From Candidatus Zhuqueibacterota bacterium (lineage in GTDB: Bacteria > Zhuqueibacterota > Zhuqueibacteria > Zhuqueibacterales > Geothermadaptataceae): a stretch of 46,126 bases of DNA. This document shows, piece after piece, positions 21,568-42,927 of this stretch. Made by a program: the position numbers and the translations under genes. The stretch is from assembly GCA_030950365.1 (NCBI GenBank), contig JAUZRQ010000100.1, forward strand, positions 1-46,126, in the 5' to 3' direction. Under the pieces are notes generated by a model. That model worked only from the letters and a program-made list of their open reading frames with translations, did no database searches and had not been told where the DNA came from. Positions within the stretch are counted from its first letter, which is position 1, and each line of letters opens with the position of its first letter.

Positions 21568-24500
21568 TCATCGGCCGTCGTTTTCGGTGCGGCTTTCACC
21601 ATCCGGCAGCAGCCGATCGTCTGATTCTTCGTGATCCGGTGGCAGCTTCCAGCCTTTCCAGATGTAATACAGGGCCGGAATCACCAGCAGCGTAAGAATC
21701 GTCGAGCTGATCATGCCGCCGACCATCGGTGCCGCGATGCGCCGCATCACCTCCGAGCCCGTGCCGGTCCCCCACATAATGGGCAGCAGGCCGGCCATGA
21801 TCGCGGTCACCGTCATCATTTTCGGCCGTACGCGATCCACGGCACCTTCGATGATGGCTGCGTACAGGTCCTTCAGGCTGCGCATCTTTCCGTGCATCAG
21901 CCGGTTTTCATAGGCATGATCGAGGTAAATCAGCATCACCACGCCGGTTTCGGCGGCCACACCGGCCAGGGCGATGAAGCCCACGCCCACAGCCACGCTG
22001 AAGTTGTAGTTGAGCAGATACATGAGCCAGATGCCACCGACCAGCGAAAACGGCAGCGACAGCATCACCACCAGGCTCTCAGGGATGCTCTTGAAATTCA
22101 GATACAGCAGCACGAAAATGATCAGCAGAGTGACCGGCACCACAAACTGCAGCCGTTTTTTTGCGCGCTGCATGTACTCGTACTGCCCGCTCCATACCAT
22201 GGAATAGCCCGGCGGCAGCTTGATTTTCTCATCCACCACCTTTTTGGCATTGGCCACGTAGGTGCCCACGTCGATGTCGCGTATGTCCACGTACAGCCAG
22301 GCCGTGCGCCGCGAATTCTCCGACTTGATCACCGGTGGGCCTTTGTGAATATCGATCTTCGCCACCTGACCGATGGGAATCTGCGCCCCGGTGGGTGTGC
22401 TGATGAGCACGCGCTCCAGATCGGTGATGTGGTCGCGCAATTCGCGCGTGTAGCGCACATTCACTGGATAGCGTTCCAGGCCCTCCACCGTGTAGGTCAC
22501 ATTCATGCCGCCAATAGCGGACATGATCACGTCCTGCACATCACCGACGGTGAGCCCGTAGCGCGCCGCTTCGACGCGATTGATCTTGAAGTCAAAATAG
22601 TTGCCGCCGACGGTTTTTTCCGGGAACACGCTCAGGGTTCCGGGCACGTCGCGCAGCACCAGCGCAATCTGTTCGGCCAGGTCGGACAGCACCGCCAGGT
22701 CCTCACCCATCAGCTTGATACCCACCGGGGTTTTGATGCCCGTGGATAGCATATCGATGCGCGTTTTGATGGGCATGGTCCAGGCGTTGGTCAGGCCCGG
22801 GAACTGGATGGCGCGATCCAGCTCCTCCACAAGCTTGTCGATGGTCATTCCCGGTCGCCACTGATCTTTCGGTTTCAGGGTGATGGTGGTCTCGATCATG
22901 CTCAGTGGCGCCGGATCGGTGGCCGTTTCTGCGCGCCCGATTTTGCCGAACACGGTTTCCACTTCGGGAAACGATTTGATGATTTTATCCGTTTGCTGCA
23001 AAATCTCTCTCGCTTTGGTAATCGAAATACCCGGATCGGTGGTGGGCATGTACAGCAAATCGCCTTCGTTCAATGGCGGCATGAATTCGGAACCAATCTT
23101 TTCCAGCGGCCAGATAGAAACAACCAAAACAACCAGTGCGGTGGCAATCGTCGTCCATTTGAAGCGCAACACCAGGCGTATAAGCGGATGGTATACCTTG
23201 ATCAAAAAGCGGTTGATCGGGTTTCGCTCTTCGGGGATGATTTTGCCGCGAATCAGGTAGCCCATCAAAATTGGCACAATGGTGATGGACAGCAACGCCG
23301 ATGCCGCCATGGCGTACGTTTTGGTATAGGCCAGCGGCTTGAACAGCCGGCCTTCCTGTGCCTGCAGGGCAAACACCGGCAGGAACGACAGGGTGATGAT
23401 CAGCAGGCTAAAGAATAGCGCCGGCCCCACCTCTTTGGAAGCGTCGATGATGATCTGCCAATGGTCTTTGCGGTGGCCGTCCCGCTCAATGTGTTTATGC
23501 GCGTTTTCGATCATCACAATGGCCGCATCCACCATGGCGCCGATGGCGATGGCGATGCCGCCCAGACTCATTATGTTGGCGTTGATGCCCTGCTTGTACA
23601 TCACCAGGAAGGAGATGAGAATACCTACCGGCAGGGTGAAGATGGCCACGAACGCCGAGCGAAAATGCAGCAAAAAGATGATGCTGACGATGGCCACGAT
23701 CACGCTTTCTTCGATGAGCTTCTCCTTCAGGTTGTCGATGGCGCGCTCAATGAGAGCGGCGCGGTTATACACCGGCACGATCTCCACACCCTCGGGCAGG
23801 CCCTTTTTCAGCTCTTCCAGCTTGGCTTCCACCGCATGGATGGTCTTAAGCGCGTTTTCACCGAAACGCATTACGATAATGCCGCCGACCACCTCGCCCA
23901 GGCCGTTGTAATCGGCCAGACCGCGACGCAACTCCGGTCCGAGGTGAATGTTGGCGATATTTTTCAGCAGAACCGGAGTGCCGTGCGCATCCACGCCCAG
24001 CGGAATATTTTCCAGGTCCTGGATGGACTGAATGTAACCCAGGCCGCGCACCATGAACTCGGTTTCCGACATTTCGATGAGCCGGCCGCCGACGTCGTTG
24101 TTGGAGCGCTTGATGGCCATCTTGACCCGTTGCAGCGGGATGTTGTACATTAGCAATTTGTTGGGATCCACTTCGACCTGATACTGCTTAACGAACCCGC
24201 CAATGCTGGCGACTTCGGCCACGCCCGGCACCGACGCCAGCTCATAGCGCAAGTACCAGTCCTGAATCGAGCGCAATTCCGACAGATCATGTTTGTCGCT
24301 CTTCAGGATGTATTCATACACCCAGCCCACGCCGGTGGCATCCGGACCCAGAGTGGGGGTCACCCCGGGCGGCAGCCGCTTGGACACGTAGTTCAGGTAT
24401 TCCAACACCCGGCTGCGCGCCCAGTACAGGTCGGTCCCATCTTCAAATATGATATAAACGAAACTCAATCCGAAAAAACTATAGCCGCGCACCACCTTGG

Positions 24501-24735
24501 CATAGGGAACCGATAACATGGCGGTGGTCAGTGGATAGGTCACCTGATCCTCTACCACCTGCGGCGCCTGCCCCGGATACTCAGTGTAGATAATCACCTG
24601 CACATCCGACAGATCCGGAATGGCGTCCAGCGGGATGTTGAGCATGGCGATGGTGCCGGCGAAAATCAAAAATAGAACAGTGAGAATCACCAAAAATCGA
24701 TTATTCACCGACCATTCGATAATTCGTTCTAACAT
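21568..24735 (-). CDS. cusA: CusA-type heavy-metal efflux RND transporter
   Basis: A 1055-residue inner-membrane RND pump of the heavy-metal (HME) family. It shows the expected two-fold layout: a first helix (FLVILTVLFLIFAGTIAML), a large periplasmic loop (about 35-335), helices 2-6, a second helix and loop (about 530-860) and helices 8-12. The proton-relay segment in TM4 is GAMVDAAIVMIENAHK (about residues 398-413), the CusA form found in Cu(I)/Ag(I) exporters, as opposed to the divalent CzcA form. It exports Cu/Ag from cytoplasm or periplasm through CusB and TolC. The start is ATG 24735; an in-frame GTG lies at 24747. It is 22 bp after the adaptor gene, so co-transcribed. Confidence 0.93.
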   Translation of the reverse strand: MLERIIEWSVNNRFLVILTVLFLIFAGTIAMLNIPLDAIPDLSDVQVIIYTEYPGQAPQVVEDQVTYPLTTAMLSVPYAKVVRGYSFFGLSFVYIIFEDGTDLYWARSRVLEYLNYVSKRLPPGVTPTLGPDATGVGWVYEYILKSDKHDLSELRSIQDWYLRYELASVPGVAEVASIGGFVKQYQVEVDPNKLLMYNIPLQRVKMAIKRSNNDVGGRLIEMSETEFMVRGLGYIQSIQDLENIPLGVDAHGTPVLLKNIANIHLGPELRRGLADYNGLGEVVGGIIVMRFGENALKTIHAVEAKLEELKKGLPEGVEIVPVYNRAALIERAIDNLKEKLIEESVIVAIVSIIFLLHFRSAFVAIFTLPVGILISFLVMYKQGINANIMSLGGIAIAIGAMVDAAIVMIENAHKHIERDGHRKDHWQIIIDASKEVGPALFFSLLIITLSFLPVFALQAQEGRLFKPLAYTKTYAMAASALLSITIVPILMGYLIRGKIIPEERNPINRFLIKVYHPLIRLVLRFKWTTIATALVVLVVSIWPLEKIGSEFMPPLNEGDLLYMPTTDPGISITKAREILQQTDKIIKSFPEVETVFGKIGRAETATDPAPLSMIETTITLKPKDQWRPGMTIDKLVEELDRAIQFPGLTNAWTMPIKTRIDMLSTGIKTPVGIKLMGEDLAVLSDLAEQIALVLRDVPGTLSVFPEKTVGGNYFDFKINRVEAARYGLTVGDVQDVIMSAIGGMNVTYTVEGLERYPVNVRYTRELRDHITDLERVLISTPTGAQIPIGQVAKIDIHKGPPVIKSENSRRTAWLYVDIRDIDVGTYVANAKKVVDEKIKLPPGYSMVWSGQYEYMQRAKKRLQFVVPVTLLIIFVLLYLNFKSIPESLVVMLSLPFSLVGGIWLMYLLNYNFSVAVGVGFIALAGVAAETGVVMLIYLDHAYENRLMHGKMRSLKDLYAAIIEGAVDRVRPKMMTVTAIMAGLLPIMWGTGTGSEVMRRIAAPMVGGMISSTILTLLVIPALYYIWKGWKLPPDHEESDDRLLPDGESRTENDGR

Positions 24736-24757
24736 GTTGTTATCCACTCCGTTGGGG

Positions 24758-26293
24758 TTATTTCTTCTTCAACCGCTCTCGTATCATTTTCTGAATCGCT
24801 TCCTGAATCCGGCTCTCGGAATCGAGCAGGAACTGTGCAGAGGTCACGATTTCTTCGCCGCCTTTAAGGCCGGCCAACACCTGATATTCGCCATTTTCGC
24901 CTTCGGCGCCCAAAATGATTTCTCGCGGTTCAAACTGGCCATTGCCCAGGGCAATGAACACCAGATTGCGCCGGCCGGTGCGAATTACCGCTTCCGATGG
25001 CACCACGGGGGTTTCGCGTTCCAGTTCATGCAGAAAATGCACATTGGTGTACATCTGCGGTTTCAAACGCAGTCCCCGATTGGGCACCTCGATGCGCACC
25101 TTGACGTCACGCGTCTTCGTGTCTAGGTAGGGATAAATATAATCCACCCGGCCCCGGAAAATCACGCCGGGGATGTATGGCGACTCCATTTCCACTTCAT
25201 CGCCTTCGGCCACCCACGGCACTTCATATTCGAACAGATGCGCATACACCCACACCGAGGACAGATCGGCAATGCGGAACAGGTCCATGCCGGGTTTCAC
25301 ATACATGCCCTCTTCGGCATTTTTATGCAGCACAATACCGGTCTGGGGCGAATAGATGGTCATGGTTTTGACCACTTTGCCCTTTTCTTCCAGCTCCCGG
25401 ATTTGCGCCTCGGTGATGTCCCACAAACGCAGACGGCGGCGCGCTGCCGCGAGCAAATCGAGGGCGCTGCGGTAAATATCAGGTATGGCGTTGTCTTTCA
25501 GCTTTTGCACATTTTGATACGCCAGCAGGTATTCTTCCTGAGTGGACACCAGCTCCGGCGAATAGATTTCCAGCATCGGCATGCCTTTAACCACTTCCTG
25601 GCCGGTTTCATTGACATAAAGCTTTTCGATCCAGCCGGAAAATTTGGTGTTCACCCGGTACAGTTTTTCCTCGTTGTAATCGACATGGCCCACGGTGCGA
25701 ATTTCCCGCCGCAGCCGCTTCACTTCCACGCGCGTGGTCTTCACGCCGATGTTTTGCACCACAATCGGATCGATGATGATTTTGCTGCCCGTGCTCAGAT
25801 TCTCCTCGCCCTCATAGACCGGAATCAGGTCCATGCCCATGGGCGATTTTCCGGGCTTGTCAGAGATATAGGTCGGGTCCATCGGCGCACGCCAGTACAA
25901 TATCTTTTTGCCTTTTTTGCTCTTTTTCGCCGCCTTTTCCGAACCGGCCGGCGCATCGGCGGTGCCCATGTCCATCTCCGCCATCTCGTGTTCGGCGCCG
26001 CCATTGGTTTTATGTTCGGCGACCTGTCCGGCCGCGGCCTGTTCACTGGCCTGCTGCTCGGTACGCAGCGGCGTCAATTTCATGCCGCAGATGGGGCAGT
26101 TGCCGGGCTCATTCTGGATTACCTGCGGATGCATACCGCAGGTCCAGAGCTGCCCGGATTCACTGCTCTGTTCGGTTTTGGCTTTATCATCGCCACAGGC
26201 GATCATGCCCATGGACAGGCCTGCCACGATTAAAAACAGCAGCGCCCACGGGAACAGTTTACCAGTCCAGGTTTGAATCGCGTTGGTTTTCAT
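24758..26293 (-). CDS. cusB: CusB-type periplasmic adaptor with two heavy-metal-binding motifs
   Basis: A 511-residue membrane-fusion protein. The N-terminal signal ends in a lipobox-like MIACGDD (Cys about residue 33). A heavy-metal-binding domain follows (about 48-75: WTCGMHPQVIQ and GNCPICGMKLTPL), then a linker with Met/His/Ala/Lys and a second motif (about 135-165: LYWRAPMDPTYISDKPGKS, PMGMDLIPVYEGE). The adaptor proper has a barrel-sandwich half (GWIEKLYVNETGQEVVKGMPML), an alpha-hairpin (about 265-320), the second half (YSPQTGIVLHKNAEEGMYV) and beta-barrel domains. It links CusA to the TolC-type channel and may deliver metal. The start at ATG 26293 is chosen over upstream codons for its proper signal and Shine-Dalgarno. 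Confidence 0.93.
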   Translation of the reverse strand: MKTNAIQTWTGKLFPWALLFLIVAGLSMGMIACGDDKAKTEQSSESGQLWTCGMHPQVIQNEPGNCPICGMKLTPLRTEQQASEQAAAGQVAEHKTNGGAEHEMAEMDMGTADAPAGSEKAAKKSKKGKKILYWRAPMDPTYISDKPGKSPMGMDLIPVYEGEENLSTGSKIIIDPIVVQNIGVKTTRVEVKRLRREIRTVGHVDYNEEKLYRVNTKFSGWIEKLYVNETGQEVVKGMPMLEIYSPELVSTQEEYLLAYQNVQKLKDNAIPDIYRSALDLLAAARRRLRLWDITEAQIRELEEKGKVVKTMTIYSPQTGIVLHKNAEEGMYVKPGMDLFRIADLSSVWVYAHLFEYEVPWVAEGDEVEMESPYIPGVIFRGRVDYIYPYLDTKTRDVKVRIEVPNRGLRLKPQMYTNVHFLHELERETPVVPSEAVIRTGRRNLVFIALGNGQFEPREIILGAEGENGEYQVLAGLKGGEEIVTSAQFLLDSESRIQEAIQKMIRERLKKK

Positions 26294-26327
26294 CCTCGAT
26301 TCTCCAAAAATATGGGGTTCAGTCATG

Positions 26328-27632
26328 TTATTCTTGCGAATTGAACGGTTGTCCCACGGCCTTTTCCAGCGCCGCGTATTGCTTGAAATAATTGGCCTGC
26401 TCACGTGCATAGGCCAGGCGCAGTTGCAGCAACATGCGCTCGGCATCCAGCAGGTTCAGAAAATCCAGTTTGCCGGTTTTATAGGCCGACAGCGCCGACT
26501 CCAGGCTCGTTTCGGCCTGCACCAGCAATCCCTGTTCGTACAGGTCCAGGGTTTCTCGCAGGGTTTTTAACTGAAAAAGAATATCGGCAATCTCCGCTTC
26601 CACGGTTTTCCAGAGATTGTCGTATTGATACTGCCGGGCGATTTGCATCTCGGTGGCCTGCTCCACGGCCGCCCGCCGCGGGCCGAGCCAGATCGGCAGG
26701 TTGATGCCCAGCATCACCGAAAAAGCGTCCTTGCCGGAATCCTGAAACATGCCATTGACCTTCGGAATCGAAATGTAGGTGGTTTGAAAATTAAAATCCG
26801 GCAGGTAATTTTTGCGGGCCAGCTTTTTGGCAAACGAGGCTTTTTCAATCATGTATTTGGTCGCCTTCAGCTCCTGGCGGCGCTCGCGCGCGATTGCCAG
26901 CAACTGTTGTTCAGCCAGGGTCACCGGCGGCAGATCAATATCCACTGCCGTGCCGATCGGCGCATCCGCGGAACGGTTCATCAGTGCGTTTAGCCGGGCT
27001 ACCACGCCCGTGCGCCGTTTTTCAAATGCCAGCTCTTTCACCTCGATCGTGCTGATCTCGACCTGTGCCTTCAGCACCTGCGCCTGAATGCCGCTACCGG
27101 TGGCATACTTGGTGGCCGCCACATCGGCGAAATCCCGCAGGATGCGCTTGTACGTGCGCAGAATGCGCAGCGATTGATCGATGTTGTACAGGTCTGCGTA
27201 AGTGCTTTTCACCTTGAACAGCACATCCCGGCGCGCCGCTTCATAGTCCTGTCGTGCGGCTTCGGCATCCTGCAAGGCGATTTTGCCTTTCAATCCCAGC
27301 TTTCCCGGGAACGGAATGCGCTGCGACAACACAAACACGTTTTCCTGTGGACCGACCCGCGTTTCCACGTTTTTCACCCAGCGGGTGTAACCCAGAACCG
27401 GATCGGGCAGCGACGATACCTGCGCCGGTACCGCCAGCAACGCGCGATAGCGTTTTTCAGCTGAACGGATTCCCGGATTCTCCTTCAGGGCAATCTCGAT
27501 GATCTCGGAGAGATTCGCCACCGCGCTGGTGTCCGCCATCGGATTCTCCTGCAATTGCCGTGCGCGTGCGACTCCGGCCAGCAGCAGGATGGTGATGAAC
27601 ATCCAGCTTATTTTCATCATGCTGTGCTTCAT
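26328..27632 (-). CDS. TolC-family outer-membrane channel of the metal efflux pump (CusC-type)
   Basis: A 434-residue outer-membrane factor. The signal peptide is MKHSMMKISWMFITILLLAG. The protein shows the family's duplicated coiled-coil layout: NLSEIIEIALKENPGIRSAEKRY, then the strand LGYTRWVKNVETRVGPQENVF with the metal-pump-typical LSQRIPFPGKLGLKGKIA, and in the second half FSVMLGINLPIWLGPRRAAVEQA. It completes the tripartite Cu/Ag pump with CusB (34 bp downstream) and CusA. The start at ATG 27632 follows GAGGATAGA; in-frame codons further upstream lie in the 5' leader. It is the first gene of the operon and has a sigma-54 promoter with its predicted start about 59 bp upstream. Confidence 0.9.
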   Translation of the reverse strand: MKHSMMKISWMFITILLLAGVARARQLQENPMADTSAVANLSEIIEIALKENPGIRSAEKRYRALLAVPAQVSSLPDPVLGYTRWVKNVETRVGPQENVFVLSQRIPFPGKLGLKGKIALQDAEAARQDYEAARRDVLFKVKSTYADLYNIDQSLRILRTYKRILRDFADVAATKYATGSGIQAQVLKAQVEISTIEVKELAFEKRRTGVVARLNALMNRSADAPIGTAVDIDLPPVTLAEQQLLAIARERRQELKATKYMIEKASFAKKLARKNYLPDFNFQTTYISIPKVNGMFQDSGKDAFSVMLGINLPIWLGPRRAAVEQATEMQIARQYQYDNLWKTVEAEIADILFQLKTLRETLDLYEQGLLVQAETSLESALSAYKTGKLDFLNLLDAERMLLQLRLAYAREQANYFKQYAALEKAVGQPFNSQE

Positions 27633-27702
27633 TCTATCCTCTTGTTGATCTGTCTGATTCATATTCCAGATTATTTCCATAGATTAAACGTCTCTTCTAT
27701 TG

Positions 27703-27716
27703 GCAAAGGCTGTGCC
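27703..27716 (-). promoter_or_regulatory. Sigma-54 (-24/-12) promoter of the TolC/CusB/CusA operon
   Basis: On the minus strand the site is GGCACAGCCTTTGC, matching the consensus GGCACGNNNNTTGC at 13 of 14 positions including spacing. Transcription would start near 27691, giving a leader of about 59 bases before the TolC gene. The paired palindromes at 27889-27925 lie about 170 bp upstream of the -24 element. Confidence 0.82.
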
Positions 27717-27888
27717 GAAAATAAAGCGATGGCGGCATTACCGCCACGCACGAGGGCCTGCTGGGTAAGATGCGAAAACAGGTGTTTGTTTTTTTGAGAA
27801 TTGCGCCGCCAGAGGACGGGAAAAATTTTTGGTCGGGGGAATTTTTTGGCTGGTCGTTGGAACGTTTGGATCAAACGGGAGGGCAACC

Positions 27889-27925
27889 TGTAGAATATTC
27901 TACAAACCATGTAGAATATTCTACA
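27889..27925. promoter_or_regulatory. Paired palindromic activator sites, Cu/Ag pump operon
   Basis: Two identical copies of the perfect 16-bp palindrome TGTAGAATATTCTACA, at 27889-27904 and 27910-27925, with centres 21 bp apart. The spacing equals that of the pair at 19066-19102. They lie immediately downstream of the NtrC-type regulator gene and upstream of the sigma-54 promoter, so they are most likely its enhancer-type binding sites. Confidence 0.85.
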
Positions 27926-28073
27926 AAACAGATAATCCACAAAAAAGACCAAAAAGTCGCCGCGCGGGAGATTCACAAACCAACACCTCAAAACGCGATG
28001 GCAGCCAGTGGCCGATAGCGAGAACGGCCATCGGTGGGATTAAATGGAACGATTCGGCTGTAAAAGGACAGAA

Positions 28074-29432
28074 TCAGGATATGCCCAGCTTTTTCATCCG
28101 GTAGATCAGCACATGGCGCGGGATACCGAGCATCTTCGCCGCGGCCGTCTGGTTGCCGTGGCACTTGTTCAGGGCGTTGAGGATCGCCTCTTTTTCAATT
28201 TCGGCCAGCGAATGAACATCACCGGTGCCGCCATCAGACGCGCCCGGCTCGGCTTTGCGGCCATGCACCACATGGGCAGGCAGGACGTCCAGGCCGATCA
28301 CGCCGCCGTCGGCCAGAATCGTGGCGCGTTCCATGACGTTCTCCAGTTCTCGCACGTTGCCGGGCCAGTCGTACGCCATCAGCGCATCCATGGCCTCGGG
28401 CGAAATGCGCATGCGTTTGGTGCTGCCGAACTTGTTCAAAAAATACTGCGCCAGATGCGGAATATCTTCCCTGCGCTCGCGCAGCGGCGGAATGCGGATG
28501 GGAAACACCGACAGCCGGTAGTACAAATCTTCGCGAAACACGCCTTCCTGCACCAGCTTTTCCAGATTTCGGTTGGTGGCCGCAAGAATGCGTACATCCA
28601 CCTCGATGGGCCGGTCGCCCCCCACGCGCTCGATGACGCGCTCCTGCAGCACGCGCAGCAGTTTGGCCTGCAGCTCCGGCTTCAAATCGCCGACCTCATC
28701 CAGAAAAATGGTGCCGCCATTGGCCTGCTCAAACTTGCCGCGGCGGTCGCGGGTGGCTCCGGTGAAAGCGCCCTTCACATGACCAAACAGCTCGCTTTCG
28801 AGCAGGTTATCGGGGATTGATGGGCAATTCACCACCACCAGTGGGCCATTTTTGCGGCCGCTGTTGTAATGAATGGCGCGCGCGATCAGCTCTTTGCCGG
28901 TGCCGCTCTCGCCCAGAATGAGCACGGTGGCCTCGGTTTCCACCACCCGCGCCACCATCTTCAGCACTTCTTGCATCGGCTGACTGCGCGCGATAATGGC
29001 TGAAAAATCATAGTTTTTCAGCAGTTCGGAGCGCAACTGAATATTTTCCGTCTCGAGCTGTCGCGTGCGCAACGCCTTTTCCAGCGTGAACAATAGTTGC
29101 TCCCTTCCGAACGGCTTGGCCACGTAATCATCCGCGCCCTGGCGGCAGGCTTCCAGCGCATTATCAATGGTGCCGTAGGCGGTGATGATGATAAAAATCA
29201 CATCCAAACTTTGCTGGCGCACAAATTTCAAAAAATCAATGCCCGAGCCATCGGGGAGCGCTAGATCGCACACCACAGCATCGAAACTTTTCTCCACGAA
29301 CCGCTGCCGCGCCTGCTGCAGATTTTCCGCCGTGGTCACGCTGTATCCAGCCTGACTGAGCTGGTGTTCCAGCACTCGCAACAGACTCGGATCGTCATCC
29401 ACCAGCAGAAGCTGTTTCGGCTCTTTCTTCAT
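28074..29432 (-). CDS. Sigma-54-dependent response regulator (NtrC/ZraR-type)
   Basis: A 452-residue activator. The receiver domain (about residues 6-118) has the acidic pocket VDDD and the phosphoacceptor Asp56 (CDLALPDGSG). The AAA+ domain (about 140-375) has Walker A GESGTGKE, the sigma-54-contacting GAFTGA loop, Walker B GTIFLDEVGDL and the arginine-finger region. The C-terminal Fis-type helix-turn-helix (about 410-452) reads AILNALNKCHGNQTAAAKMLGIPRHVLIYRMKKLG. It is translated from an ATG that overlaps the kinase gene by 38 bp. The GAFTGA loop and the adjacent -24/-12 promoters make control of the metal pump operons very likely; the inducing metal is inferred from the targets. Confidence 0.94.
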   Translation of the reverse strand: MKKEPKQLLLVDDDPSLLRVLEHQLSQAGYSVTTAENLQQARQRFVEKSFDAVVCDLALPDGSGIDFLKFVRQQSLDVIFIIITAYGTIDNALEACRQGADDYVAKPFGREQLLFTLEKALRTRQLETENIQLRSELLKNYDFSAIIARSQPMQEVLKMVARVVETEATVLILGESGTGKELIARAIHYNSGRKNGPLVVVNCPSIPDNLLESELFGHVKGAFTGATRDRRGKFEQANGGTIFLDEVGDLKPELQAKLLRVLQERVIERVGGDRPIEVDVRILAATNRNLEKLVQEGVFREDLYYRLSVFPIRIPPLRERREDIPHLAQYFLNKFGSTKRMRISPEAMDALMAYDWPGNVRELENVMERATILADGGVIGLDVLPAHVVHGRKAEPGASDGGTGDVHSLAEIEKEAILNALNKCHGNQTAAAKMLGIPRHVLIYRMKKLGIS

Positions 29433-30555
29433 ATTCCGCCCTCATTAGAGGTATCACCAGCCTTGCCGTCGTGCCTTTGCCGGGTTCGCTTTCCAGGCTC
29501 AGCTCCCAGCCATAGCTGTCTGCAATGCGTTTGGAAATCGGCAGCCCGAGCCCGGTGCCAGTCTGGCGCGTGGTGAAAAACGGTTTAAAGACCTCTTCAA
29601 GCACCTCCGGATCGATACCCACGCCGTCGTCCTTGATGGTGAGCTCGACCACCGGTTGCTGCGAGGTTTCGCGATCGACCGCGAGCAGCACATTGATGTG
29701 GCCTCCGGCGGGCACAGCAGCAAAGGCATTGAGCAACAAATTCAACACCACCTGCCGGTACTGGTTTTCATCGCCGGTGACCCAGACGGCTTCGCCGGGA
29801 ATACCGGCGTGCAGGTGTTTTTTTTCTTTCCGGGCTTTTGCTTGCAAAATCTGGGCCACGGTGCGCGTGGCTCTGGCCACATCGAAGCGCTCGTGTTTTT
29901 TGCGCGCCGAAGCCCCCGCCAGGCTCAGGTAATTTTCGATCACCTCGTTGATGCGGTCCACGTCGCGAATCAAAAGCTCCACAAACTCGCGGTTTTTGCC
30001 GCCCTGCGGATAATCGTCGCGCAGGATTTCCGCCGCGCCTTTGATGGCGCCGAGCGGGTTGCGCACCTCGTGCGCCAGACTCGCCGTCAGTTCGCCGAGA
30101 ATCGCCAGGCGATCGGCCAGGCGCAGTTGTTCTTCCACTTCGGCAAGCTGCTCGGATTGCCGCTGCAATTTTTCATACGACGCCTGCAGCTCCCGGGCCA
30201 CGCGTTCGTACCGGAACCGCTCCGCCCGCTCGCTTTCCACCAGCTTACCGGTGATGAACGCCACCACGTTGAAAATCACCATCTCCACAAACCGGTTGAC
30301 AATGACCTCGAAATGCTCGCTCCAGTCGCTGGTGACGTGGGGCGTATAAATGATGGAAATGGAGATCGAGGCGATAAGTCCGCCGCGCACCCCAAACCGG
30401 AACGCCGCCAGGATGATGGGGATGTAATACAGAATTTTGTAGATGTCGTGAAAATAAGCCAGGGCAATATCGGTGCTATAATGCAACACGCTGATGATGG
30501 CGATCAGGCCGGCAATGCCCAGCGCATCGCGTTTGTCCTGTCGGGTGAGTTTCAT
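29395..30555 (-). CDS. Membrane sensor histidine kinase
   Basis: A 386-residue kinase. Residues about 10-105 form a hydrophobic bundle (LGIAGLIAIISVLHY, ILYYIPIILAAFRFGVRGGLIASISISIIY, VEMVIFNVVAFITG) with only short loops, so there is no sizeable periplasmic sensor domain. A coiled coil (about 106-147) leads to the HisKA domain with His162 in LAHEVRNPLGAIKG. The HATPase domain has the N box (VVLNLLLNAFAAVP), G1 (DDGVGID), F (FKPFFTTRQTGTGLGL) and G2 motifs. It overlaps the response-regulator gene by 38 bp and is its cognate kinase. In ZraS/CusS-type systems the signal is periplasmic metal; here sensing may be within the membrane. Confidence 0.92.
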   Translation of the reverse strand: MKLTRQDKRDALGIAGLIAIISVLHYSTDIALAYFHDIYKILYYIPIILAAFRFGVRGGLIASISISIIYTPHVTSDWSEHFEVIVNRFVEMVIFNVVAFITGKLVESERAERFRYERVARELQASYEKLQRQSEQLAEVEEQLRLADRLAILGELTASLAHEVRNPLGAIKGAAEILRDDYPQGGKNREFVELLIRDVDRINEVIENYLSLAGASARKKHERFDVARATRTVAQILQAKARKEKKHLHAGIPGEAVWVTGDENQYRQVVLNLLLNAFAAVPAGGHINVLLAVDRETSQQPVVELTIKDDGVGIDPEVLEEVFKPFFTTRQTGTGLGLPISKRIADSYGWELSLESEPGKGTTARLVIPLMRAEYEERAETASAGG

Positions 30556-34254: not shown

Positions 34255-37200
34255 TTAATGCGATTCATACCCCTTCAATCCGCCTTTGGCCACGATCAAC
34301 TTGAAATGTTCGCGGGAAATTACAAATGTCTTGCCATCGGCAGTGAACGTGCGGATGCCGCTGGTCTCGGCAATCTCCACGCCGGCCAGGCGTAGGGTTT
34401 TCTCCACGCGCTCCTGCCAGTACGGCCAGTCTTCATCGGCAATCGCCTCGATTTTCCCGTGCGTGTACTGATGCGGATCGAGGCGATCGTACGGATCGAA
34501 GAACAGCATGCGGCCGCGGGAAGCGCCGCCCAGCAGCTTGGTGCCGCGGTACGGCCGCGGCTGGGTGCGCAGCCGGCCTTCGGCGTCGAAATATAGGCCG
34601 CCGAAGAAGAAATCGCCGCCCATAAGCGACTCGCCGGCGTATTTGCTGGCGCTGCCGAGAATATGCACCTGCAGCGCCTGGCAGCGTGGATCGTTCACCG
34701 AGTTGGTCCAGGCGCGATCCACGATATCGCCGAGGATAAACACTTCGCCGCCCTTGGACGCATAGCCGCACACCTTGCCGGCATTGCCGAAAATTTGCAA
34801 ATAGCCGTGGTGCATGCACATGGCGGCAAAGTTCTGCGCATTGCCGTGCACGCGCAGCACGCCACCCTGCATGAACGCGCCTAAATACTCGCCAGGTGTG
34901 CCGTACACGTCCATCACCACGTCGTCGGTATCGGTTTTGCCCATGACCGCCGTGGAAATGAGCCGCTGGCCGTTCACGCGGTACAGCACATAGCGCCGCC
35001 AGCCGAGATCGTACGCGCGGGCCAGCAGCGCCGCCAGCGACCACTGCGGATCGGTGCCCTCGGCAGCAAACCCACGCGCATCGATGAGCAGCACGCGTTC
35101 TGTCCCGGGATCGGTTTGCGGCAGCTCCCGGTGCTCGAACGTCAGCCGGTGCCAGCGTTCACCATCGATGTCCGGCAGCCGGTCGAAAAACGCGTTCAGC
35201 AGCGTCCGCGTGATGTCCAGCAGCGAGCTTTTGGCCTTGCTGCCGGTGTTCATGGTGCGCAGGTAATCGATCAAATAGGTAAAAATCTCGATCACCTCAT
35301 CCACCGACGCCCTTTCCGCTCGCTCGGCAATGGTTGTCAGCACCCAGCGGTAGGTGTTAAAATCCCAGCCGGCCAATTGCTCGCGAATCCACGCGCGGAT
35401 GACCTGCGGCGGGGCCTGTAACGCTTGCAGCAGCTCGGCCTCGTTTTCGGGCGTGCGCAGGGTTTCGCGCCGCATGGAGTAATGCTGGCCTGGATGCTGC
35501 AGCTCGATGGACTGGCCATAGCGATCGATGATCTCGACGTCGTTGATGCGGCCGGAATCATCGTAATGGAACCGGCTGATCATGCCGTTGCTCACGGTCA
35601 CCACATCGGGCGCGGCGCCGTCCACTAACCCTTCCTCATCCATCAGCTCCAGCATGTGCTGGATGGCCTGTTCTTCGGAAGCGATGAAGCTGAACACCCG
35701 CTGCCGACCGTTGCTCTGATCGATCCAGAAGGCGGTGGTGCTGGGGCGCAAATCGGCCGGGTCTTTCAAATCCACGCGCTCGGTGACGTTTTTCTCCGGC
35801 AGATGGCGCAGACACAGGTACTGATACGGCCCGTCCGGGCTACTGGTGAACTCGACCCGCTGCACCTCTTCGAGGTGATGCCGCAGCTCGCCGGAAATCA
35901 GCGCGAGGTCATCGCCGGTGGTGGGCGAAAACGCCTCGAACAGCGCCCAATCGGGGTATTCCAGCTCCTCGGCCACCAGGTGAAATTTCAGCGACGCGAC
36001 CTCGGTGTCGGTGGTGGCCAGCGGCGGCAGACCGAACTGTTCCACCCGCTGTTTCAGGGTCTCGTAATTGGTGGTTTCGCCATTGTGCGTCAGCGCGGTG
36101 TGCAGTTTGGCAAACGGATGCGCGTTCATCTGCTCCACCACACTGCCGGTGGCCAGTCGCACGTGAATGATGTTGTTCGGCGCCGGCGGCGTGTCCCACG
36201 GAATTTCGCGGCCCGCCGTTTTCCACACCGCGAAATTCTTGCCGGCGGACATCACCGCGGCAATGCGCCGCTGCCGTGGCAGGTATTTTTCTTTGTGCTG
36301 CGTAGGCGGATAGGCCTGCACGAATTTGCGTAAGGTGTACAGGTACATCTCGCCGTACTCGTCGAGATTGGCGTCCCGCAACGGCTGATCTGCCTGCAAC
36401 GCTTCGAGGTACTCCCACGCAATTTCATCCTGTTCCACAAACTGCCGCCAGGCCTCCGACTCGATCTGCCACACGTACAGAATCTGGCTCAACTGCACCG
36501 TGTGGTTGAACACGAACAGGTCTTCGGCCTTCTGCAAAAACTTTTCAAGCTGCTGATAATTGTCCACATCGACATGCGGGAAATACTCGCGGATGTACGC
36601 ATAGCGCGGGCTCACCAGCAGCTCCTTTTCGATGAACTCGGTGAGTACCGACTTTTTCACGCGCACGAAATAGCGGTAGATGTCGCCCGGGTCGGTGTCC
36701 GGGCCGCCGAACTCGCGGTAATCGCGTTCGCGGCCCCGATCGTCGCGTTTGTACGATTCGCGGATGGTTTCCGGCGTGGTGTCGGCTTTGAAGTCAAAAT
36801 ACGGTTCCAGAAACACTTTGCGGATTTTCTCCGCCAGCCGGTGGCGGTAGGCCAGCACCTTTTGCCGGGCGGCGCGCCGCAGCTCATCGCCGCTGAGGCC
36901 GGTTTCGGCCAGCTCGCGCTCCACCTCGATCTGCAGCACGCCCTTCACCATCACGCGGTAGGCGTAGTCGTGCGGATGCTCCGGGAAGCACAGGGTTTTG
37001 CCCACGCCCACGCCATCCATGCCGCGGTTTTTCATGGCGTGCAGGGCTTTGTCGAGAATGTAACTGGGCACCGGCTCGCTGCCGATCACGGCGGCCACGC
37101 CGCAGTTGCTCTGGCCGGTGGCATGCAGCATCTCAGCCACTTTATGGCTGCGCTCGCGGTACTCCCGCCGCTGGCGGATTCGGAAATCCACGCGCTCCTT

Positions 37201-40200
37201 GAGCCCCAGCCATTGGATTTTATCGAACCGGCCGCGTAGCTCGCGGATATCGCGGATGCCCAGCGCGGCCAGAGCCCGGATCACCTGCATCTGCATCAGC
37301 AGGAACGCGTTGGTGATCTGCCGCGCATTCAGGTCCACATCGCGCAGTTTCTGCATGATCAAATTACTGGTGGCGATGCCGCGCGAGCAGCCATCGTGGC
37401 AGTTGCGGTTGCGGTCGCAGCCGATGGCCACCATGGGCGCGGTTCCCCAGATCACGCCATCCGCACCGAGCGCAATCGCCTTGATCACGTCCTCGTAGGT
37501 GCGGATGCCGCCGCTGACAAAGAATTTCACGTAGTTGCGCAGGCCGTCCTTCACCAGCCGGTGATGAATGAGCGGAATGGCATACTCGATGTGCATGCCC
37601 ATCTGGCCTTTGATGATGTTGGGCGAGGCGCCGGTGCCGCCGCGCGGGCCATCCAGCCAGACTTCGATCTTCATGCCGTACTTGCGGACATAATCCGGCA
37701 TCTCCCGGCGGATCTCCTCCGGCGTTTTGCCCAACTCCTGCGCTTTTGCTTTGATGGCTTCTTCGGTGTTGTCCTTGGCGATGCGCCCCAGGCCAGCAGC
37801 GATGAATTCGATATCCACCGAAGGTGAGACCTTCACCGAAATCACCGCCTCGGGGTTGATCATCCGCACCATGTCCACAAACGCCTTCACATCTTCGATG
37901 GAATAGCAGTTGTGAAACGGAAACGGCGAGATGATGCTGGTGTACGAATACCGGATCACCTCCTCGCTGAGGTGCAAGATGTTTTCAAATTCCAGCGGAT
38001 CGATTTGGTTCTGCGCGTGCAGCTCGTACGCCTGCTGCTGGATGTTCCACAGACTCATTTTGAGTTCGGGAAACAGGGTCTGCTCGTCCTGCGCCCGCAG
38101 GATATGCGGATAGGCTTCCCTGGCCACCTCCTGCAGCGGGTGCCCGGCCTGCCGTTCGATGCGCTCGATGCGTTCGGCCAGTTGCTGGATTTTCTCCACG
38201 TCGATTTCTTCCAGTCCCTCGATACCGCGCAGGTACGACACCAGTTTGTTCACCTTCTGTGCCAGAATGTGCCCGCCGATGCCCATCTTGGCGCCCTGGC
38301 TGTAGGCGATCACCACCCGGCGCGCTTTTTTAATCGTCTCCTTGGTTACACCGAACAGGCCAGTTTTGAGCTCGGTGGAGACGTACGGCTCTTCGTCTTT
38401 ACCGACCACCTCGTAGAACAGAAATGGCTGCAGGTCGGGATATGGCTCCAACGCTTCAAAGATTTTCGGATGCGTTTCATCGGTGATGCCGTTTTCGGCC
38501 AGTCTAGCCTTGATATCGCGCACGGTGTAATAATGATCGTGCTCGAACAGCGACTTGATGCGCTGGATATCCGGCTCGGTGAAGAAAATCGGCTCGCCTT
38601 TGCGGTTCAGGAAGAAGCAGGTCGGATAGCCGCCCTCGCCGGTGTCGAACTGGATGCCCAGCGCTTTTGCGGCGATCACATGCGCGCGCCAGCTATCCAG
38701 CCCGATGCTGCCCACCGATTTGCCGCCGAACATCCACGGCGCCTGCAGAATGAGGTCTTTGTCAAGCTTCACCGCCGTTTTCACCTGGTCCAGCTCGGAC
38801 TCCGGAATCATGTCCGGGTCGCGCTGATACAGGATTTTCATCACATCGAAGCCGTCGCCGAGCAGGCCGATGCCCTTGACGTTTTTCAGATACGCCAGCC
38901 GCATGTCGCCGGCGGCCATGTGCCCGAGCGATTCAATGACCCAGCCCGGCCACACGTGATCGCGCTGATACACGGTCTGGTTTTCTTCGCCGAGGTGATA
39001 AAAATGGTGCGGCAACCGCAGCGGCTGTACGCCGCGCTTGAGCTCCGTGTACGTGCGCACGCCCTCGTCGGGGATCGGCTCTTCCTCGATGAGCTCACGG
39101 TTCAGTTCCTGGTAGTCGTGCACATACGCTTCGTTCTCGAAAATCTGCTTCTGGATGCGTTCTTCCAGTTCGTTGAAATCGATGAGGCGGCCTTCTTCGC
39201 CCACGGTCTTTTTCAAATCTTTGAACCCGGCCGCGCCCAGCACCTCGAGAATCTGCACCTTGCGCGATTCCATCTGATTATTGAGTCGCTCAATGGCCCA
39301 GTCGATGTCCAGATTCAGCAGCTTCTCGGTGGTGGTCTGTTTCTCGATGATGGCTTTGTAAGCGTACGGATCCAGCGCCAGCAATGCCGCAAAATCGATC
39401 AACGTGGCCTCGGCGCCGCGCTGGATGGTCTTCTGGCTGTCCGACGCCAGCCGGATGCCGCCAGAAGCGATGATCGACACCAGATGCCGGCGCCCGCTTT
39501 CGAGCAGGTAGTGATGTACCGCCCGCACGGCATGCGAGGTGACGAAATAGTTGTCCTTGTTGCGCAGCCCGTGGATGTGAATCACATCGACGTCGTTTTC
39601 GAGGAAGCCCTCGATTTTCTCTTTGATGTGCGGCAGGATCTCGCGGTCGCCGATCATATCATATTCGGAAATTTCGAGATAACCGCTGAGCAGCGGTTTA
39701 TGGCCGTTCATCTGCGCCACCGACTCGGTGATGTAGCGCACGGTTTCACTCAACTGCGGATGGTAATGAATTTCGAACAGCGGCATCTGCCACAGGTCCA
39801 TGAGCAGCTCGCGGTTGATGTTCGGGTTGACGATCAGGTGATGGATCAGCTCGTGATCCACTCGCGGTACGATGACCGCCGGCAGGTGCTCATAGCCGCC
39901 CTCTTCTTTGAAAAAGTCGAAATATTCCAGCAGCCGGTTGAGCTGAATCACCACCAGGGTGTTCTGCTGCTCGGCGACCTTCATCAGCGCCAGCTCCACC
40001 CGGCCGTGGCTGTCCAGCGGGATGGCGTTGTACAAAATCGGCGTGTTGAGCTTGATTTTCGGATACGGCGGATTGTGCATGCGGCCATTTTCATCGAATC
40101 GGCAGTACCGATGGCGCTTACCAAGAATGACCGACAGCTCTTCGTCCGGGTCGCCCTCGTGCAGCCGGTTCTGCGCCGGGCCGACGATGTGAAAGTGCGA

Positions 40201-42927
40201 AAAGCGCTCGGCGTCGAAACCGATGCCGCGGTGCTTGTCGCCCTGGCCCATGCCCGACACCGGAATCTGGCCGGTGGAACACTCTTTATCAATCTCCATC
40301 AAAATTTCTTCGGTGACATAAACATCGGCCATTTCGGTGAGCGCCGTGGCGCGCTGCACCGTGGTCGTATCGCGCAATTGATGCAACTGCGTATTCCAGT
40401 AACGCTTTTCGTCCAGGTCCACGGCATGGTCAATGAGGTTCTGCACGAACTCGCGCTCCTGCTGGATCACTTTATTCTGCGGGCAGAAGTTGATGCAGGC
40501 GTTGCACAGGGCGCAGTTTTGATCGATGAGCGTGGGGATTTCGCGCGGTTGGCCGATGCGCGCGCCGTAGGTGCAGGCGTTCTCGTGTGCGCACATGCCA
40601 CAGCGGATGCACGTCTCCGGGTCGATATACAGTTTGCCATAGGCAAACCCGCGCGGGTACAAGATTTTCAGCCCGTGCTGCAAATGCGAGCCGTTAGCTT
40701 TCTGCTCCGCCAGGGTGTGCGACCGGTATAGCGGATTTTCCTTCATGATCTGCCAGAACCGGTCGATGAACTCGGACTTTTCCTCCTCATCCAATTTAAG
40801 CGCCTGCTGAAAACGGTTGTCGGCTTCGACCAGATCGTACAGTTCGGTCAGCGGAATGTTGGTGGGGCACACGCGGGAGCAGTTGTCGCACCGGGTGCAC
40901 ACAAGAAAGCCCAGGGCTTCGATCTGCGAAATTGTTTCGCCCCGGGCGATGCGCACAGCCGTCTTGCGACGGGTGATGGGCGTGGCCAGCCCATACAGAC
41001 CGAACACGTCGCTGGTTGGGCAGACCCGCTCGCAACTGTCGCACTCGGCGCACGACGCCGCAAGCTGCTCGATGCGGTCGCGCTTGGCTTTGAGCGCCGG
41101 CGGCACCACCAGCGGCAGCACCACACCTGAGCCTCGCCACAGCAGTTTGCCCAGATACCACAGTGAAAACCGGTCTTCACTGATTTTTCCACGGTGCAGC
41201 AATTTCATGCCCCAACGCATCAACATCGGCGCCACCGACTTGAACAGCCGCAGAAACAGCCCCCGGCCGGTGGAATTGATAAACTTGGTCTGGTTGATCA
41301 GCGACTGCGGATCGTACTGGCGCTTCAGGGTGAGCAGCCGCGTCCAGAATTTGGCGCGTTCGCCCTTTTGCTGGCTTTTCAAAAAGGGCAGATTCCACAA
41401 TCCGGTGCCGTACGGCCGGCCGCCGTAGTGCACCGCAGCCTGAGTCATGAAGGGCACCAGCCCCAGGTACATCTTGTGTCGCGCCCGCTGAATGTCGGCC
41501 AGAATGATCGATTGCACTAAAATCTCGCGGTCGCTGATCAGGTGCGCCTCGGTTTTCACCGCATTGCCGGTCCAGTCGCTGATGGCCTTCTGAATAAACG
41601 ACAGATAGTGCGGAAAGCTCTCGAGGGGCAGAATGGTTTCGCTCACCAGCATCGACGGACCGAGCGGCTTCATTTCCACCGGCAGATAGCGGTGCTCCCA
41701 CAACTTGTGCGCCAGGTCCACCGACAACCGGCGATAGGCCAGGTCCTGATAGCGGCGGCGCTCGTTCACCGCGCTGAACATGGGGATGCGCAGCGCCTTT
41801 TCGTAATCCTCGCGCGTATCGAACTCCATTACCACCACATGCTCCACCTCACGCAGCGTGTCGATGAGGTCCTTCTCCTGCTGCAGGTAATGCAACTTCC
41901 GCTGATCGTGCTGCTCGAGCGCCTTCTGCAAGCGCTTCTGCACTTTATCCGCCTCGACCGCATGCGTGGCTCGCAGATATTCAGCATCAAAATACATTAC
42001 GCTGGTGGGCCGCAGTTGCCACTCGCTCAGCTTCTGTAAAAATCGTTTGGCGCTGTGCACGTCGTTGAACGAAAACGCATATGGCTTGCTCACATAGGTC
42101 AGCCGTTTGACTTTCAAAATCACGCCGGCAATCACACCGAGCTGGCCCTCACTGCCGAAAAACAGATCGAAATCGTCGTCGCCCGCACGCAAGATCCGCC
42201 AATCGCCACCGGGGGTGAGCAGCAGGATGGCCTGCACGGCGTTACGCACATGGCCGTATTTAAATGCTCCCAGACCGATGCCGCCGGTGGCCACCCATCC
42301 GCAGAGGGTGCCCGAGTGAGGGTTGGTAATATCCTGCTGCAGCGCGAAGCCCTGATCGCGCAGGTATTTGCGCACGCGGGCGAAAATCGCGCCCGGCCCC
42401 ACGATGATGGACTCGCGGTCGGCATCCAGCTCATGGAAATCGAGATAGGACAGATCGAGAATGACGTCCTTATTCACCGGCACGGCGCCACCGAACGGCC
42501 AGGTGCCCGCGCCGCGGATGGTGTAGCGAATCTTGTGCTGACGCGCATAGCGCACAAATTTCTGCAGGTCGGCCAGGGAGCCGGGCCGCACCACATACCG
42601 CGATTCGATGTTGACCAGCATTTTTTTCAGCCGCTTTGGGACAAACGCCGTGCCCGAGTCGTTGTGATAGATCTCTTTTTGCACGGGCATGAGCGGAAAC
42701 ACTTCGGAAGCGAAACTCAGCAGGGAACGCAGGTCGCGGAAATGCGTTTCTGCGGGCGCCGCCATTTCTTGCGACACCTGCTCCTTGAAATTTTCCAGCA
42801 ACAGATCCACGGCCTCGCGCTGATGCCGCACGCGGTCACTGGCGCTGAACGCAAACAGTCGATCGAAAGGAGCGTATTTGTTGATCTCCGGTGTATCGGC
42901 GATGACACTATCCCGAGCCAATTCCAT
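34255..42927 (-). CDS. Giant FAD / iron-sulfur / glutamate-synthase-like fusion protein (2890 aa)
   Basis: One uninterrupted frame. Domains in order: FAD-binding PCMH-type oxidase (about 108-275; VVRPGSLADLQKFV, PHSGTLCGWVATGGIGLG, FFGSEGQLGVIAGV) and its C-terminal part to about 560; two GlcF-like 4Fe-4S motifs (C626/629/632/636 and C677/680/683/687); a ferredoxin pair (C773/776/779/785 and C805/808/811/815); a GltB central-like region (about 880-1250; AVRAVHHYLLESGRRHLVS); the FMN synthase domain (about 1380-1910; GSIGLDSW, DTGEGG, YSQGAKMGIGGH, SPFPFHNCYSIED, GPRGGTGASP, cluster Cys 1837/1843/1847); class II glutamine amidotransferase (C1942, HVRLATGS about 2257, HNGETTNY about 2280, TDTEV); GXGXG domain (about 2620-2800; GGVLRVHGNAQNFAAM). 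Normal GltB order is amidotransferase-central-FMN-GXGXG, so this is permuted. Glutamate formation is likely but unproven; the electron source may be a hydroxyacid in place of NADPH. Confidence 0.88.
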   Translation of the reverse strand: MELARDSVIADTPEINKYAPFDRLFAFSASDRVRHQREAVDLLLENFKEQVSQEMAAPAETHFRDLRSLLSFASEVFPLMPVQKEIYHNDSGTAFVPKRLKKMLVNIESRYVVRPGSLADLQKFVRYARQHKIRYTIRGAGTWPFGGAVPVNKDVILDLSYLDFHELDADRESIIVGPGAIFARVRKYLRDQGFALQQDITNPHSGTLCGWVATGGIGLGAFKYGHVRNAVQAILLLTPGGDWRILRAGDDDFDLFFGSEGQLGVIAGVILKVKRLTYVSKPYAFSFNDVHSAKRFLQKLSEWQLRPTSVMYFDAEYLRATHAVEADKVQKRLQKALEQHDQRKLHYLQQEKDLIDTLREVEHVVVMEFDTREDYEKALRIPMFSAVNERRRYQDLAYRRLSVDLAHKLWEHRYLPVEMKPLGPSMLVSETILPLESFPHYLSFIQKAISDWTGNAVKTEAHLISDREILVQSIILADIQRARHKMYLGLVPFMTQAAVHYGGRPYGTGLWNLPFLKSQQKGERAKFWTRLLTLKRQYDPQSLINQTKFINSTGRGLFLRLFKSVAPMLMRWGMKLLHRGKISEDRFSLWYLGKLLWRGSGVVLPLVVPPALKAKRDRIEQLAASCAECDSCERVCPTSDVFGLYGLATPITRRKTAVRIARGETISQIEALGFLVCTRCDNCSRVCPTNIPLTELYDLVEADNRFQQALKLDEEEKSEFIDRFWQIMKENPLYRSHTLAEQKANGSHLQHGLKILYPRGFAYGKLYIDPETCIRCGMCAHENACTYGARIGQPREIPTLIDQNCALCNACINFCPQNKVIQQEREFVQNLIDHAVDLDEKRYWNTQLHQLRDTTTVQRATALTEMADVYVTEEILMEIDKECSTGQIPVSGMGQGDKHRGIGFDAERFSHFHIVGPAQNRLHEGDPDEELSVILGKRHRYCRFDENGRMHNPPYPKIKLNTPILYNAIPLDSHGRVELALMKVAEQQNTLVVIQLNRLLEYFDFFKEEGGYEHLPAVIVPRVDHELIHHLIVNPNINRELLMDLWQMPLFEIHYHPQLSETVRYITESVAQMNGHKPLLSGYLEISEYDMIGDREILPHIKEKIEGFLENDVDVIHIHGLRNKDNYFVTSHAVRAVHHYLLESGRRHLVSIIASGGIRLASDSQKTIQRGAEATLIDFAALLALDPYAYKAIIEKQTTTEKLLNLDIDWAIERLNNQMESRKVQILEVLGAAGFKDLKKTVGEEGRLIDFNELEERIQKQIFENEAYVHDYQELNRELIEEEPIPDEGVRTYTELKRGVQPLRLPHHFYHLGEENQTVYQRDHVWPGWVIESLGHMAAGDMRLAYLKNVKGIGLLGDGFDVMKILYQRDPDMIPESELDQVKTAVKLDKDLILQAPWMFGGKSVGSIGLDSWRAHVIAAKALGIQFDTGEGGYPTCFFLNRKGEPIFFTEPDIQRIKSLFEHDHYYTVRDIKARLAENGITDETHPKIFEALEPYPDLQPFLFYEVVGKDEEPYVSTELKTGLFGVTKETIKKARRVVIAYSQGAKMGIGGHILAQKVNKLVSYLRGIEGLEEIDVEKIQQLAERIERIERQAGHPLQEVAREAYPHILRAQDEQTLFPELKMSLWNIQQQAYELHAQNQIDPLEFENILHLSEEVIRYSYTSIISPFPFHNCYSIEDVKAFVDMVRMINPEAVISVKVSPSVDIEFIAAGLGRIAKDNTEEAIKAKAQELGKTPEEIRREMPDYVRKYGMKIEVWLDGPRGGTGASPNIIKGQMGMHIEYAIPLIHHRLVKDGLRNYVKFFVSGGIRTYEDVIKAIALGADGVIWGTAPMVAIGCDRNRNCHDGCSRGIATSNLIMQKLRDVDLNARQITNAFLLMQMQVIRALAALGIRDIRELRGRFDKIQWLGLKERVDFRIRQRREYRERSHKVAEMLHATGQSNCGVAAVIGSEPVPSYILDKALHAMKNRGMDGVGVGKTLCFPEHPHDYAYRVMVKGVLQIEVERELAETGLSGDELRRAARQKVLAYRHRLAEKIRKVFLEPYFDFKADTTPETIRESYKRDDRGRERDYREFGGPDTDPGDIYRYFVRVKKSVLTEFIEKELLVSPRYAYIREYFPHVDVDNYQQLEKFLQKAEDLFVFNHTVQLSQILYVWQIESEAWRQFVEQDEIAWEYLEALQADQPLRDANLDEYGEMYLYTLRKFVQAYPPTQHKEKYLPRQRRIAAVMSAGKNFAVWKTAGREIPWDTPPAPNNIIHVRLATGSVVEQMNAHPFAKLHTALTHNGETTNYETLKQRVEQFGLPPLATTDTEVASLKFHLVAEELEYPDWALFEAFSPTTGDDLALISGELRHHLEEVQRVEFTSSPDGPYQYLCLRHLPEKNVTERVDLKDPADLRPSTTAFWIDQSNGRQRVFSFIASEEQAIQHMLELMDEEGLVDGAAPDVVTVSNGMISRFHYDDSGRINDVEIIDRYGQSIELQHPGQHYSMRRETLRTPENEAELLQALQAPPQVIRAWIREQLAGWDFNTYRWVLTTIAERAERASVDEVIEIFTYLIDYLRTMNTGSKAKSSLLDITRTLLNAFFDRLPDIDGERWHRLTFEHRELPQTDPGTERVLLIDARGFAAEGTDPQWSLAALLARAYDLGWRRYVLYRVNGQRLISTAVMGKTDTDDVVMDVYGTPGEYLGAFMQGGVLRVHGNAQNFAAMCMHHGYLQIFGNAGKVCGYASKGGEVFILGDIVDRAWTNSVNDPRCQALQVHILGSASKYAGESLMGGDFFFGGLYFDAEGRLRTQPRPYRGTKLLGGASRGRMLFFDPYDRLDPHQYTHGKIEAIADEDWPYWQERVEKTLRLAGVEIAETSGIRTFTADGKTFVISREHFKLIVAKGGLKGYESH

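Follow-up and report, generated by a model that had tools for sequence, protein, structure and literature searches.

A probable glutamate synthase encoded by one giant gene, with permuted domains and a built-in FAD/four-cluster module of presumed electron input

The window, by which we mean the whole 46,126-nucleotide stretch of DNA analysed here, carries on its reverse strand one gene of 2890 codons that is read without an internal stop and has a GC content by codon position of 0.62/0.37/0.79, a coding-type pattern. It stands by itself; a DUF4412 protein is encoded downstream of it on the same strand, and a YdjC-like deacetylase upstream. From N- to C-terminus it encodes an FAD domain with a D-lactate-dehydrogenase fold, two GlcF-like [4Fe-4S] motifs, a two-cluster ferredoxin, a half barrel like the central domain of GltB, an FMN synthase domain with 3Fe-4S cysteines, a class II glutaminase and a GXGXG beta-helix. 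Elsewhere in the window (21568-30555) lie CusABC/CzcA-type heavy-metal efflux genes and, behind them, a pair of genes for a sigma-54 response regulator and a histidine kinase. The features of the gene, in window coordinates, are these:

34255..42927 (-), whole gene, 2890 codons, ATG to TAA; full-length single-frame relatives exist
42196..42597 (-), FAD-binding PCMH domain, residues 111-244; Pfam FAD_binding_4 7.2e-27; predicted fold nearest to LDHD and LctD
41272..42081 (-), FAD-oxidase C-terminal-like cap, residues 283-552; invariant W410, R413, E430, Y506 and W511; (P)YGxGxW, without GDGNxH and GEHG
40867..41052 (-), two GlcF-like 4Fe-4S motifs, residues 626-687; Fer4_8; conserved cysteines
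40483..40611 (-), two-cluster ferredoxin motifs, residues 773-815; Fer4_21/Fer4_10; conserved cysteines
39103..40326 (-), central domain, residues 868-1275; degenerate half barrel, like the GltB central domain and the C-terminal half of the FMN barrel
37123..39102 (-), FMN glutamate-synthase domain, residues 1276-1935; Pfam 3.6e-64; PDB GltB 4e-45; hhalign to GltB, probability 100
37387..37419 (-), 3Fe-4S ligand motif C1837-x5-C1843-x3-C1847; invariant cysteines
37102..37104 (-), catalytic Cys1942 of the class II glutaminase, in 14/14 single-chain relatives; predicted self-cleavage N1941|C1942
35608..37104 (-), class II (Ntn) glutamine amidotransferase, residues 1942-2440; R2257, N2282, G2283, D2307
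34258..35130 (-), GXGXG beta-helix domain and C-terminal tail, residues 2600-2890; Pfam and profile comparison

A 939-aa open reading frame also lies antisense inside the gene (window 37912-40731, forward strand), with similar antisense frames in L007 and L008; we do not count it as a real gene, since it is probably an artefact of codon composition (high third-position GC).

The same architecture is found well beyond this contig. A scan of bacterial and archaeal genomes returned 17 loci, mostly from MAGs labelled Calditrichota or KSB1, and at least 10 of them hold the complete or near-complete gene in one frame, with 58-71% identity over the alignment (mostly 64-71%); more distant forms share 31-41% identity. 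A further search, covering 40 relatives and 82 genomes of the phylum, added more copies, and the gene occurs in several families of this one phylum. There is a longer form of about 3300 aa (G008 and G013), a 2533-aa frame with the same domain order in a more distant MAG labelled Deltaproteobacteria (L023), and probably a further copy in G060, whose contig has runs of N. Some copies are damaged, by one frameshift (L022), by runs of N (L021) or by insertions (G022). These, with the runs of N in L059, are all that speaks for an assembly join or a pseudogene, to which we attach next to no probability, given at least 10 independent contigs with the same full-length frame and catalytic residues invariant throughout. 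A preliminary description of this DNA had reported a single 2890-codon gene and had named separate genes in related genomes, should they occur, as a sign of a join. The frame is indeed single, here and in many other genomes, and because full-length relatives come from many independently assembled MAGs, the gene is not a join. Separate-gene relatives are real, in G015 (861 + 885 aa) and G045 (479 + 473 + 894 aa) of the same phylum, but they lack the FAD module and represent a natural alternative architecture.

The domains listed in that description were borne out by Pfam, profile, PDB and fold comparisons, and the FMN, amidotransferase and GXGXG assignments, singled out there for checking, were each upheld by at least one of the last three. 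In Pfam, FAD_binding_4 (7.2e-27), Glu_synthase (3.6e-64), GATase_6 (2e-7, over the cut-off) and several Fer4 models match; GXGXG (3e-7, 30.6 bits) stays slightly under its cut-off of 32.5, and Glu_syn_central is weak (20.3 bits, under the cut-off), its match being placed in the FMN domain and not in the central region. There are four 4Fe-4S cysteine sets, at residues 626-636, 677-687, 773-785 and 805-815.

Comparison with GltB (which works with GltD; PDB 1ea0, 6s6s, 7mfm) revealed that every GltB domain is present and homologous, so that the whole glutamate-synthase core claimed at the outset is there. The FMN domain, together with the last part of the central domain, aligns with a GltB of the same phylum at a probability of 100 (hhalign, E 8e-48), the synthase core matches PDB GltB at 4e-45, and the beta-helix reaches a probability of 98 in profile comparison. 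In profile-profile comparison the central domain of GltB aligns with the C-terminal part of the central region (about residues 1098-1275), and the central region alone resembles the second half of the FMN barrel; the central domain of GltB has been described as a truncated barrel that duplication may have produced (PMC8097209). The barrel motifs QGAK...GG, SPxPxH..YSIED and GGTGA of GltB are all present, and C1837, C1843 and C1847 are invariant in the 14 single-chain sequences, spaced x5/x3, one residue less than in the GltB aligned with them. K1547 and R1567, which belong to the synthase site, are likewise invariant in these 14 sequences and conserved with GltB; at position 1553, in contrast, an invariant histidine stands where the synthase loop of GltB (GGQ) has a glutamine. 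In the Azospirillum enzyme the counterparts of K1547, H1553 and R1567 are Lys972, Gln978 and Arg992, which line the synthase site; one of these three residues therefore differs here. The split relatives G015 and G045 carry the histidine too, so it is not specific to the fusion.

In spite of these similarities, the gene differs from GltB in three ways: (i) The domain order is shuffled. GltB runs from glutaminase (1-422) through central (423-780) and synthase (781-1202) domains to the beta-helix (1203-1472) (PMC8097209), whereas here the glutaminase lies behind the synthase, between it and the beta-helix, in 14/14 single chains; the NCBIfam equivalog for GltB (NF008730) scores 117 bits against a cut-off of 1047. 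(ii) The glutaminase cysteine is internal to the chain. (iii) An FAD/4x[4Fe-4S] module is built in where GltD would feed electrons. The gene encodes an enzyme of the glutamate-synthase superfamily with the glutaminase moved behind the synthase and, in the position of GltD, a built-in module of presumed electron input. The gene, its domains and the likeness to the GltB core were correctly described at first; the permutation, the internal cysteine, which had gone unnoticed, and the loss of the FAD motifs discussed below have to be added.

Class II glutaminases need a free N-terminal cysteine as nucleophile. Cys1 of GltB is marked in PMC8097209. In the present chain the cysteine is residue 1942 of 2890, and it is invariant in all 14 single-chain sequences together with R2257, N2282-G2283 and D2307, which complete the catalytic Cys, Arg, Asn-Gly and Asp set; the domain matches GlmS by fold and sequence, and GltB by fold. 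In G015 and G045 the glutaminase and beta-helix form a separate gene, whose frame opens or starts 17-41 codons before the cysteine. An internal translation start just before the amidotransferase was considered and rejected: in five of the fused relatives (L008, L010, L014, L016 and L045) the 30 codons that precede the cysteine include no start codon, so a separately initiated product starting near it would be unavailable to them. Since the fold needs an N-terminal cysteine, the split genes begin before it and nearby starts are missing, we predict that the chain probably cleaves itself at N1941|C1942 into pieces of about 222 and 109 kDa, the simplest reading of the internal cysteine.

The putative electron-input module has a familiar fold and unfamiliar motifs. 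The predicted structure of residues 20-860 (mean pLDDT 79) has as nearest folds the D-lactate dehydrogenases LDHD and LctD (PDB 8jds, 7qh2_C), with TM about 0.78 over the target. The module thus shares the PCMH FAD domain and the overall fold of the FAD D-2-hydroxyacid dehydrogenases (GlcD/LDHD/D2HGDH), but the metal-binding and catalytic motifs of that class, GDGNxH and GEHG, are absent, and (P)YGxGxW, with an invariant YG, stands at the second position. What had first been called an FAD oxidase is therefore a module without the catalytic motifs of a 2-hydroxyacid dehydrogenase, and it may not oxidise a hydroxy acid, as the metal/His motifs of its nearest characterised relatives are missing. 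Five residues of the cap (W410, R413, E430, Y506 and W511) are nevertheless invariant down to 31% overall identity, which suggests an FAD active site that is maintained but altered. As for the clusters, all 16 cysteines are present in 12 of 14 sequences, and 14 of the 16 in all of them; the long forms L044 and L045 (G008 and G013), which have extra N- and C-terminal extensions, lack the equivalents of C683 and C785, so that two of their clusters would have fewer cysteine ligands.

There are free-standing FAD/FeS/CCG oxidoreductases with which the FAD/FeS part of the gene is collinear. One of these, a 1037-aa protein of G020 (L062 1133-6914), is collinear with residues 82-706 and has an RPY motif in common with them; where the fused gene goes on into a glutamate synthase, this protein continues with CCG domains, and its gene adjoins rnfC and rnfD.

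A second glutamate synthase in the window's genome (G000) was ruled out, the sole other PF01645 match being IMP dehydrogenase. Among the 12 genomes of the phylum with the gene family, fused or split, only G038 has a canonical GltB, compared with about 36 of the 70 others (Fisher p about 0.01, uncorrected for kinship, with counts read off searches of 82 phylum genomes); in G038, a GltD-type gene adjoins that of GltB. Neither G003 nor G005 gave a match to a GltD-type protein at E<=1e-20, so the electrons need not come from GltD. Other carriers do encode GltD-family proteins elsewhere, among them the window's genome, where there is one weaker match to the family; in these carriers a GltD partner may act in trans. 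The neighbourhood names neither donor nor acceptor: across the relatives no gene recurs widely beside the fused gene, and the only upstream gene common to several close relatives, which encodes the rRNA methyltransferase RlmD, was not retained as a partner. G000 has glutamate dehydrogenases. Glutamine synthetase (PF00120; type III, PF12437) was not found in this assembly, which is about 95% complete, and is present in the relatives; it lies in the missing 5% or is truly absent, and a full GS-GOGAT cycle consequently fits poorly.

We found no enzyme of this composition in the literature searched, in agreement with the initial statement that no described enzyme has this set. Known glutamate synthases take electrons from NAD(P)H via GltD or from ferredoxin. 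The archaeal-type split glutamate synthases and the N-methylglutamate synthases are described as having the same modules as separate genes for small subunits, without an FAD oxidase module; the present gene is a single chain. The eukaryotic NADH glutamate synthase, in which alpha and beta are fused, also joins electron input and synthase on one chain, but with an adrenodoxin-reductase-type GltD module and an N-terminal glutaminase (PMC8097209).

From what is shown here, namely the domain content and order, the conserved ligands and catalytic residues, the lack of any other glutamate synthase in the window's genome and the split homologues, we infer a reaction with its direction and substrate, an electron path and the self-cleavage. 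The reading that we favour, with a probability of roughly 0.6, is that of a self-contained and self-cleaving glutamate synthase that depends on glutamine, or of a very closely related synthase working by reductive amination, with its own electron input. Glutamine would be hydrolysed at Cys1942 and the ammonia passed to the FMN barrel, where a 2-oxo acid, most likely 2-oxoglutarate, would be aminated and reduced by FMN. Electrons would enter the FAD module from a small molecule or a carrier and travel first over the two GlcF-like and then over the two ferredoxin-like [4Fe-4S] clusters, reaching FMN by way of the 3Fe-4S cluster; after the cut at N1941|C1942, the redox/synthase piece and the glutaminase/beta-helix piece would stay together. 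We advance more tentatively the fuller proposal of nitrogen assimilation by one gene, independent of NAD(P)H and ferredoxin: a chain that splits at its internal Ntn cysteine would give a two-subunit synthase, and an organic donor, oxidised at the FAD site, would pay directly for glutamine-dependent amination. Against the favoured reading stand the want of a conserved neighbour that names donor or acceptor, the lost metal/His motifs, the histidine at position 1553, the missing glutamine synthetase, the presence of GltB in G038 and the FMN-only relatives of about 550 aa that G003 and G005 also carry.

Several other readings have to be weighed against this one. The FAD module could be, instead of an enzyme acting on a small substrate, a docking site for a protein or membrane carrier (ferredoxin, EtfAB or Rnf/quinone) or an electron-bifurcating part, as suggested by the lost metal/His motifs, by the presence among the closest folds of LctD, an EtfAB-linked enzyme, and by the rnfC/rnfD neighbours of the free-standing relative in G020. 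This is a serious minority possibility; the cap residues R413, E430, Y506 and W511, invariant as those of a substrate pocket would be, speak against it, as does the lack of recurrent Etf or Rnf genes next to the fused gene. The oxo acid could also differ from 2-oxoglutarate, because the glutamine of the GltB loop is an invariant histidine here. The enzyme would then make another amino acid, much as the preliminary description had allowed for another amino acceptor, by aminating another 2-oxo acid or by transferring a different amine as N-methylglutamate synthase does, and the FAD module might itself supply that oxo acid by acting on a reduced precursor. We regard this as rather unlikely: the hydroxyacid-dehydrogenase fold at the N-terminus and the co-existence with GltB in G038 would suit it, but K1547 and R1567 are as in GltB, GltB is mostly missing where the gene is present, and the histidine also occurs in the split relatives.

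Least plausible of the functional readings is the glutamate-oxidising complex offered in the preliminary description, which would run in reverse and pass electrons to a substrate of the FAD. The many Fe-S clusters would permit reversible flow, and the host's glutamate dehydrogenases are available for ordinary assimilation; the glutaminase, however, would be useless for glutamate oxidation, and its catalytic residues are all invariant, which makes this option very unlikely.

If the synthase reading holds, one chain may hold a whole nitrogen-assimilation enzyme together with the supply of its electrons, and a conserved input module of the hydroxyacid-dehydrogenase type would be a third way to power glutamate synthesis, a central nitrogen reaction. 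Self-splitting is a clear and simple prediction that follows from the internal Ntn cysteine. In a tree of the FMN domain, the family of the gene is separate from the three GltB included, on long branches that leave a single and a repeated origin of the fusion indistinguishable. Since the phylum also contains both split genes and free-standing relatives of the FAD/FeS part, the assembly of this mega-enzyme can be traced. In G022 the gene is interrupted near residue 710 by an insert of about 1.9 kb with a Schlafen AlbA_2/HATPase_c_4 reading frame (L047 4157-6088), and near residue 2063 by another of roughly 150 bp (L048, about 1014-1166).
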